Shown: piece after piece, positions 52,944-54,016 of the stretch
Numbering within the stretch: the stretch's first letter is position 1
Layout: every line of letters begins with the position of its first letter
Translations under genes and position numbers: made by a program
Notes under the pieces: generated by a model
What the model was told of the DNA's origin: nothing
Seen by the model: only the letters and a program-made list of their open reading frames with translations
Database searches by the model: none
NCBI RefSeq assembly: GCF_001403795.1
Contig: NZ_CXSU01000011.1
Location: 818,409 to 872,424, forward strand
From: Jannaschia donghaensis
Lineage (GTDB): Bacteria > Pseudomonadota > Alphaproteobacteria > Rhodobacterales > Rhodobacteraceae
Length of the DNA: 54,016 nucleotides
Direction of reading: 5' to 3'

Positions 52944-52991
52944 GCGTATTCTTCTCTTGATCGCGAGGCGCATGTTTCGTATCGGAAACGC

Positions 52992-53146
52992 GCACGTCCG
53001 GGAGACTCTGATCCCACGGACAGGGCCGAAGGAGCAACCGCCCCGGTAAACTCTCAGGCAAACGGACCTGACGTGCAAAGACACTCTGGAGAGTGCCCCG
53101 GATCGGGGCCGCCGAAGGGATAGCGATCTCAGGCGACAGGACAGAG
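52992..53146 (+). ncRNA. Tandem glycine riboswitch upstream of gcvT
   Basis: Two aptamers are visible. In the first, GCACGTC (52992-52998) pairs with GACGTGC (53070-53076) and encloses CCGAAGGAGCAACCG and AAACTCTCAGGCAAACGGAC. In the second, CTCTG (53084-53088) pairs with CAGAG (53142-53146) and encloses GCCGCCGAAGGGATA and ATCTCAGGCGACAGGAC. These are the conserved glycine-aptamer sequences, side by side as in the cooperative gcvT riboswitch. The gcvT start follows 45 bases later, so glycine should switch on the cleavage system. Confidence 0.95.
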
Positions 53147-53159
53147 GGGGCATCGAAAC

Positions 53160-53175
53160 GGGTCGCGCGCGACCC
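53160..53175 (+). other. Perfect 16-base palindrome between riboswitch and gcvT ribosome site
   Basis: GGGTCGCGCGCGACCC is self-complementary and ends three bases before the TTGGAGG ribosome-binding site of gcvT. It may be part of the riboswitch expression platform by pairing with or exposing the GGAGG, or a simple stem. There is no T-tract, so translational control is more likely than termination. Confidence 0.4.
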
Positions 53176-53190: not shown

Positions 53191-54016
53191 GTGGATGATC
53201 TGACCCTGAAGACGCTGCCGCTGGATGGCCTACACGCCGACTTCGGCGGCAAGATGGTGCCCTTCGCGGGCTACTCCATGCCGGTTCAGTATCCGGCGGG
53301 TGTGATGGCCGAACATCTGCACGTGCGCGCCAGGGCGGGCCTGTTCGATGTGTCCCACATGGGTCAGGTCGTCGTCCGCGGCGGCGGAGCGGCGGCGGCG
53401 CTGGAAACCATGCTGCCGATCGACGTTCAGGGGTTGGTCGAGGGGCGTCAACGCTACGGCTTGCTGATGCTGCCGAATGGCGGCGTGGCAGACGACCTGA
53501 TGGTGGCGAACCGGGGCGATCACCTGTTGTTGGTGGTGAACGGCGCGATGAAACATCTCGATATGGAGATCCTGGCCGCCGGCCTGCCGGATCTTTCGGT
53601 CGACCTGCTCGACGATCGCGCGTTGCTGGCCCTGCAGGGCCCGGCGGCGGAGGCGGTGCTGGAGGCGATGGTGCCCGGTGTCGCCGCGATGCGGTTCATG
53701 GACGTGCGCACATTCGTCTGGAACGGCGCGGAGCTGTGGATCAGTCGTTTTTTTTTCAAGCAGAAGACGGCATACGAGATTTCGGTCCCTGCGGAAGATG
53801 CCGACGCCTTTGCCCGCGCGTTGCTGGCCCACGATGACGTCCTGCCCATCGGTCTGGGCGCGCGCGATTCGCTGCGGCTGGAGGCGGGGATGCCGCTTTA
53901 CGGTCAGGACCTGACGGCCGAGATTTCGCCGGTGGAGGCGGGGCTTGGCTGGGCGATCCAGAAGGTCCGCCGCACCGATGGGGCCCGCGCGGGCGGCTTT
54001 CCCGGGGCTGACCGGG
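53191..54016 (+). CDS. gcvT: Aminomethyltransferase GcvT, 3'-truncated by window end and containing an adapter artefact
   Basis: Open from GTG 53191 (GGAGG seven bases upstream) to the window end, 275 codons. The T-protein pattern is clear: LPLDGLHADFGGKMVPFAGY then SMPVQYPAGVMAEH, GLFDVSHMGQ, ALLALQGPAAEAVLEAM, PIGLGARDSLRLEAGMPLYG and SPVEAGLGW. It transfers the aminomethyl carbon of glycine to tetrahydrofolate. At about residues 187-194 the family motif SGYTGEDG reads FFFKQKTA, which is an Illumina adapter translated in frame, not a natural change; see the separate entry. Flanking sequence remains in frame and normal. Confidence 0.93.
   Translation, partial: MDDLTLKTLPLDGLHADFGGKMVPFAGYSMPVQYPAGVMAEHLHVRARAGLFDVSHMGQVVVRGGGAAAALETMLPIDVQGLVEGRQRYGLLMLPNGGVADDLMVANRGDHLLLVVNGAMKHLDMEILAAGLPDLSVDLLDDRALLALQGPAAEAVLEAMVPGVAAMRFMDVRTFVWNGAELWISRFFFKQKTAYEISVPAEDADAFARALLAHDDVLPIGLGARDSLRLEAGMPLYGQDLTAEISPVEAGLGWAIQKVRRTDGARAGGFPGADR
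53748..53780 (+). other. Illumina P7 adapter with T-run embedded in gcvT (artefact)
   Basis: A run of nine T (53748-53756) is followed by the 24-base P7 flow-cell oligonucleotide, beginning CAAGCAGAAG and ending CATACGAGAT (53757-53780). In reads that run past an insert, this adapter appears next to a homopolymer, which reverse-complemented gives exactly this T-run plus adapter. The last part (GAAGACGG then TACGAGAT) resembles the natural gcvT codons for GEDGYEI, which explains mispriming or assembly at this site. Bases here should not be treated as genome sequence. Confidence 0.97.

Follow-up and report, generated by a model that had tools for sequence, protein, structure and literature searches.

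An apparent in-register overwrite of gcvT by an index-free Illumina P7 oligonucleotide in a Jannaschia donghaensis assembly, very probably a flow-cell priming artefact

The gcvT gene in the assembled genome of Jannaschia donghaensis contains nine T residues followed by the complete 24-nt Illumina P7 sequence. Judged against the same gene in relatives, this graft is an in-register overwrite rather than an insertion, with no base gained or lost. Very probably it is a sequencing artefact that arose when the T10-P7 oligonucleotide grafted on the flow cell misprimed within gcvT. The window analyzed here is a 54,016-nt stretch of contig 11 (positions 818409-872424) of the 3.48-Mb genome, and positions below refer to it (Table 1).

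Table 1. Features at the gcvT end of the window.
Feature	Position	Strand	Assignment	Basis
Glycine riboswitch aptamer	52989..53079	+		Rfam RF00504, 56.2 bits (gathering 32)
gcvT, 5′ part	53191..54016	+	aminomethyltransferase, glycine cleavage T-protein	open frame, PF01571, relatives
T9	53748-53756	+	most likely nine of the ten T in the spacer (T10) that precedes P7 on the flow-cell oligonucleotide	sequence read-out
Illumina P7, 24 nt exact	53757-53780	+		0 mismatches
Normal gcvT sequence, collinear with relatives	53781..54016	+		flank alignments

Results

A P7 sequence lies within an otherwise normal gcvT gene

The P7 match is the only one in the window when up to three mismatches are allowed, and the only one in the whole genome at up to two. 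None of 100 dinucleotide shuffles of the window contained a P7 match, and a reversed-P7 control found no match in the whole genome. The exact match, the empty shuffles and the single genomic copy rule out a chance origin. P5 (24 nt, up to two mismatches) was absent from the whole genome. Downstream of position 53780 the sequence continues directly into gcvT, with neither an index nor a TruSeq or Nextera read-primer sequence. The base at the tenth position 5′ of P7 is a G, as it is in the 20 relatives displayed, and the first T of the T9 tract may be native.

From its start in the window, the gcvT frame stays open as far as the last base of the window, with WISR-FFFKQKTA-YEIS as the translation across the graft. 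Its product matches the folate-binding domain GCV_T (PF01571) with an E-value of 3.8e-71 over profile positions 3-255 of 255. Clear GcvT relatives are 45-81% identical; those used below to judge register and priming show 64-81% protein identity within the genus and 55-61% outside it. Several relatives share WISR upstream and YEIS downstream of the graft. A pattern of the SGYTGxDG type was found in 24 of the 29 loci of relatives (23 SGYTGEDG, 1 SGYTGDDG), the other five having no match to the pattern used; the motif is missing from this record, where it is overwritten. An initial annotation made from the sequence alone had described nine T and a full P7 at 53748-53780, read in frame as FFFKQKTA where GcvT proteins have SGYTGEDG and flanked by normal gcvT. 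All of this was borne out, the gene on either side being collinear with relatives. That annotation had also proposed a comparison with relatives for the uniqueness of the eight residues; the 15-nt adapter core occurred in none of the 29 gcvT loci.

A genuine GcvT variant carrying FFFKQKTA would account for the open frame. An open frame is, however, no evidence for a variant, since five of the six reading frames of T10-P7 are open. The eight residues translate an exact synthetic oligonucleotide, they stand in place of a motif that the pattern search found in most relatives, and the genome has no other strong gcvT: its remaining GcvT-like matches are much weaker (best 2.7e-18 against 5e-180), so that there is no second clear copy. 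We therefore regard a genuine variant as practically impossible, in agreement with the initial annotation, which had called any novel GcvT variant drawn from this record false. The gene is still classed as gcvT, and we judge that the motif change is not present in the organism itself.

The surroundings are those of an ordinary gcv operon, with the glycine riboswitch upstream of gcvT. The roughly 80 nt that follow the aptamer (53080-53160) look by eye like a second aptamer but fall below the Rfam threshold. Inside gcvT, a run of 178 N begins right at the window end, 236 nt 3′ of P7. Past this run the C-terminal end of gcvT is recognized in a different frame, so that the run is probably a scaffold gap whose length was only estimated; what looks by eye like gcvH comes next.

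Compared with relatives, the graft replaces bases without an indel

Register and priming were judged from the sites of relatives, which stand in for the native bases of this strain. With 300-nt flanks, the indel across the graft was 0 in all 23 gcvT relatives measured (24 tried; L026 gave no flank match), including the ten comparisons that had gaps elsewhere within the flank alignments. With 90-nt flanks it was 0 in 20 of 20 (23 tried; L022-L024 gave no match). The last eight P7 bases (53773-53780) equal the aligned gcvT bases of three relatives (L005, L007 and L020), and the other 20 measured relatives have one to six of the last P7 bases in common. On this comparison, positions 53773-53780 are probably identical to the native bases and would correspond to the priming 3′ end of the oligonucleotide. 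The erroneous part of the record would then amount to about 25 bases (24-25), at 53748-53772.

These alignments bear on an assembly chimera, in which unrelated pieces would have been joined at an adapter. Unrelated contigs could become joined through adapters at their ends, and the N run is close by. Against this, both sides belong to the same gene, in frame and collinear, and no measured relative showed an indel. A chimera is extremely unlikely. The initial annotation had offered mispriming or an assembly chimera and had spoken of a fusion; its mispriming half agrees with the 3′ resemblance and recurrence described below, and the chimeric fusion agrees less well with a site that is in register with no inserted or lost base. 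It had also advised distrust of the last few hundred bases of the window. The wrong bases number approximately 25, and the 236 that follow P7 are collinear gcvT. Whatever the origin of the graft, resolution is poor here, with the N run starting right after the window.

P7 copies without an index are rare in public sequences

Commercial flow cells carry a T10 spacer on the grafted P7 oligonucleotide. A surface-immobilized 5′-T10-P7 primer is printed in the text of PMC11123353. Scans for T8-P7 found at least 120 loci in genome contigs and at least 120 in viral contigs, and the counts that follow are samples of these. Among the matches listed, 249 P7 copies lie in 240 loci plus three loci of genome G351. 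A standard index with read-primer follows 232 of them, which leaves 17 of 249 without such sequence by a strict motif. By a looser motif, and excluding the three G351 copies, 235 of the 246 copies among the matches listed are indexed and 11 are index-free; one locus (L090) has only 9 nt 3′ of P7, so its class is unsure. The P7 copy in the window falls in the rare index-free class.

A run of exactly ten T was the commonest next to indexed P7 (83 of 235 copies among the matches listed), and T10 alone preceded P7 in 52 of the 84 listed copies with 12 nt or less upstream. With weaker matches counted, T10-P7 occurred in 71 of the 50,697 phage records. The corresponding figures were 33 of 72,556 for plasmid records and 9 of 5,426 for E. 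coli genomes. The record details considered here cover 30 of the 71 phage and 30 of the 33 plasmid matches. Within the family, T6-P7 occurred in just two of 394 genomes, this one and G351, which rules out a family-wide shared event. G351 itself has three T-tract P7 copies (L153, L154 and L155); those on its contigs 15 and 49 are index-free, and the copy on contig 48 is outside the index-free list.

The absence of an index 3′ of P7, together with the T tract, points to the grafted flow-cell T10-P7 oligonucleotide and not to a library adapter. Read-through into a library adapter, or an untrimmed adapter assembled into the contig, is suggested by the fact that P7 belongs to library adapters, most listed copies being of the indexed kind. 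Yet read-through would place an index and a read-primer between insert and P7, and neither is found in the window. Where indexed adapters could be measured, moreover, they were insertions and not in-register overwrites. H2, H3 and H5 in E. coli add 29, 48 and 79 nt relative to K-12, and the adapter in phage G4507 adds 177 nt relative to G10400. Library-adapter contamination is highly unlikely.

Other index-free sites are also in register

For five index-free sites with a near relative, the indel was 0 at each: an E. coli prophage tail gene, Vibrio phage D173, Klebsiella phage Marfa, Shinella katG and one viral contig. For the E. coli prophage gene, each of the seven other records listed gave one continuous alignment of 1034 against 1034 bases. 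The viral contig has other gaps within 400 nt of the site and none in the 90-nt flanks. Over a span of approximately 1 kb, three of the five listed relatives of Shinella differ by one base, and the sole relative measured (H122) is locally at 0. For Marfa, a one-base difference over approximately 1 kb was seen in 8 of 10 listed relatives (its own two records excluded), and the extra base relative to phage EI lies approximately 420 nt away from the graft.

There were exceptions. In kdpA of E. coli, an index-free partial oligonucleotide whose last two bases are missing is out of register at +13, and the index-free site on G351 contig 49 gave an indel of 0 against one relative and of -12 against another. 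Some copies lay outside the comparison. In E. coli these were H9 (weak match, no K-12 alignment), H7 (K-12 match of just 134 nt at 70%), H4 (an insertion sequence there in K-12) and H6 (beside an efflux gene). The copies of phages G4500, SaPL and phiLBG22 were indexed by eye and also stood outside it. The relatives search returned only its own two records for Proteus phage Saba and only the query for viral contigs L178 and L218, which placed these outside the register test; the Deinococcus plasmid, an indexed copy, likewise returned itself alone. On G351 contig 15 the upstream flank gave no match.

Intact sites in relatives resemble the P7 3′ end

We scored intact sites of relatives against P7 by a 3′-anchored alignment (match +1, mismatch -1, gap -2). 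The five index-free sites scored 13, 13, 13, 17 and 11, and the intact gcvT site scored 7 to 15 across 20 relatives. Among 107,801 other window positions on both strands, 163 reached at least 7, 16 at least 9 and three at least 11, and none reached 13. This background covered every position except 179 near the graft, and the counts were the same with and without an early stop of weak extensions. The sites of relatives thus resemble the 3′ end of the oligonucleotide above chance, as expected if mispriming took place. Both at gcvT and at the E. coli site, optimal pairing requires a one-base bulge. A bulged pairing at a site that is nevertheless in register suggests that the register was set by sequencing cycles or by consensus columns and not by the pairing.

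The same sites are overwritten in several records

The 18 Vibrio phage records of the D173 group align 1034 against 1034 bases in one piece. The full 34-nt oligonucleotide is present in 5 of the 18, and some match to T10-P7 was counted in 11 Vibrio records. In D59 and D65, P7 follows a T tract that is cut short, with native bases visible in register, and in D68 the site is intact; a further four records show 99.7-99.8% identity. Most of the Vibrio records belong to one accession series and may share a sequencing run, in which case the recurrence would not be independent. In the Klebsiella phages Marfa and EI the oligonucleotide is at the same site (L294, L324). The portal gene of EI is annotated as two pieces. 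Among the plasmid matches listed, T10-P7 hits lie at matching positions in several Salmonella (approximately 94 kb) and Klebsiella (112,868 bases) records, which suggests recurrent mispriming.

Discussion

Proposed origin of the overwrite

Taken together, resemblance, register and the missing index are best explained by mispriming of the grafted oligonucleotide. During cluster amplification, 5′-T10-P7-3′ would anneal by its 3′ end within gcvT library molecules, at the codons of the conserved EDGYEI stretch, which are similar to the end of P7. Its extension would yield shorter, index-free strands in which T10-P7 is joined straight to gcvT. Reads coming from the downstream side, where the gap lies, would then call P7 and the T tract instead of the native bases. 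If the assembly keeps those calls in register, 24-25 bases would be overwritten with no indel and with the frame open. Register could be kept by two routes. A mixed cluster that includes full-length strands would revert to native calls once the short strands end; alternatively, consensus building or polishing would lay clipped reads over the native sequence. We infer the surface priming, and either of these routes, from the sequence pattern. Mixed clusters as a general phenomenon have been described (PMC3163567).

A P7-only PCR primer could instead have misprimed in solution at the library-enrichment step. Copying of the molecule on the flow cell would then have supplied the T tract, and the assembler or a polishing step the join. 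This primer, too, has P7 at its 3′ end and would prime there as well, and clipped reads could be placed over native sequence in register by consensus building or polishing. Clusters grown from molecules made in solution would, however, lack a full-length strand, and their reads would be expected to end after the T tract, giving contig ends. Here the contig continues into native sequence, an observation that argues against priming in solution but is not decisive. We consider this origin unlikely and favor priming by the grafted oligonucleotide.

Implications

For gcvT itself, the result concerns data hygiene only: the record is unfit for claiming a GcvT variant. With the length unchanged and most T10-P7 frames open, such an overwrite could survive annotation. 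We lean towards regarding index-free, in-register overwrites by flow-cell P7 as a distinct class of systematic error, characterized by sites predictable from their similarity to the P7 3′ end, recurrence between separate deposits of an organism or its relatives, no indel, five of six open frames and an origin in mixed clusters. If this is true, quality checks based on frameshifts and gaps would overlook them. The scale in public data is given by the T8-P7 loci, at least 120 each in genome and viral contigs. Most sampled P7 copies are indexed, and the index-free class is easier to overlook because length and frame tend to persist. Masking P7 together with its T tract, and not indexed adapters alone, would catch this class. 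Among the papers searched, no description of this overwrite event was found, and the strings FFFKQKTAYEI, KQKTAYEI, FFQAEDGIRD and T10-P7 (31 nt) matched in none of them. The initial annotation had named P7-derived FFFKQKTAYEI peptides as contaminants of protein databases; at the DNA level, P7 is common across public collections.

Comparison with known sequences

With the Illumina P7 grafting oligonucleotide (T10-P7), the window shares all 24 P7 bases and the adjoining T run, from which it differs in having T9 and not T10. Library-adapter contamination, in which P7 is accompanied by an index and TruSeq or Nextera sequence, has the same P7 and T tract; the window differs in that it lacks index and read-primer, overwrites rather than inserts, and carries the graft in the interior of a contig, even though an N run lies 236 nt away. 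Compared with GcvT proteins (PF01571), the gene around the graft is normal, and eight residues are exchanged for the translation of the adapter.
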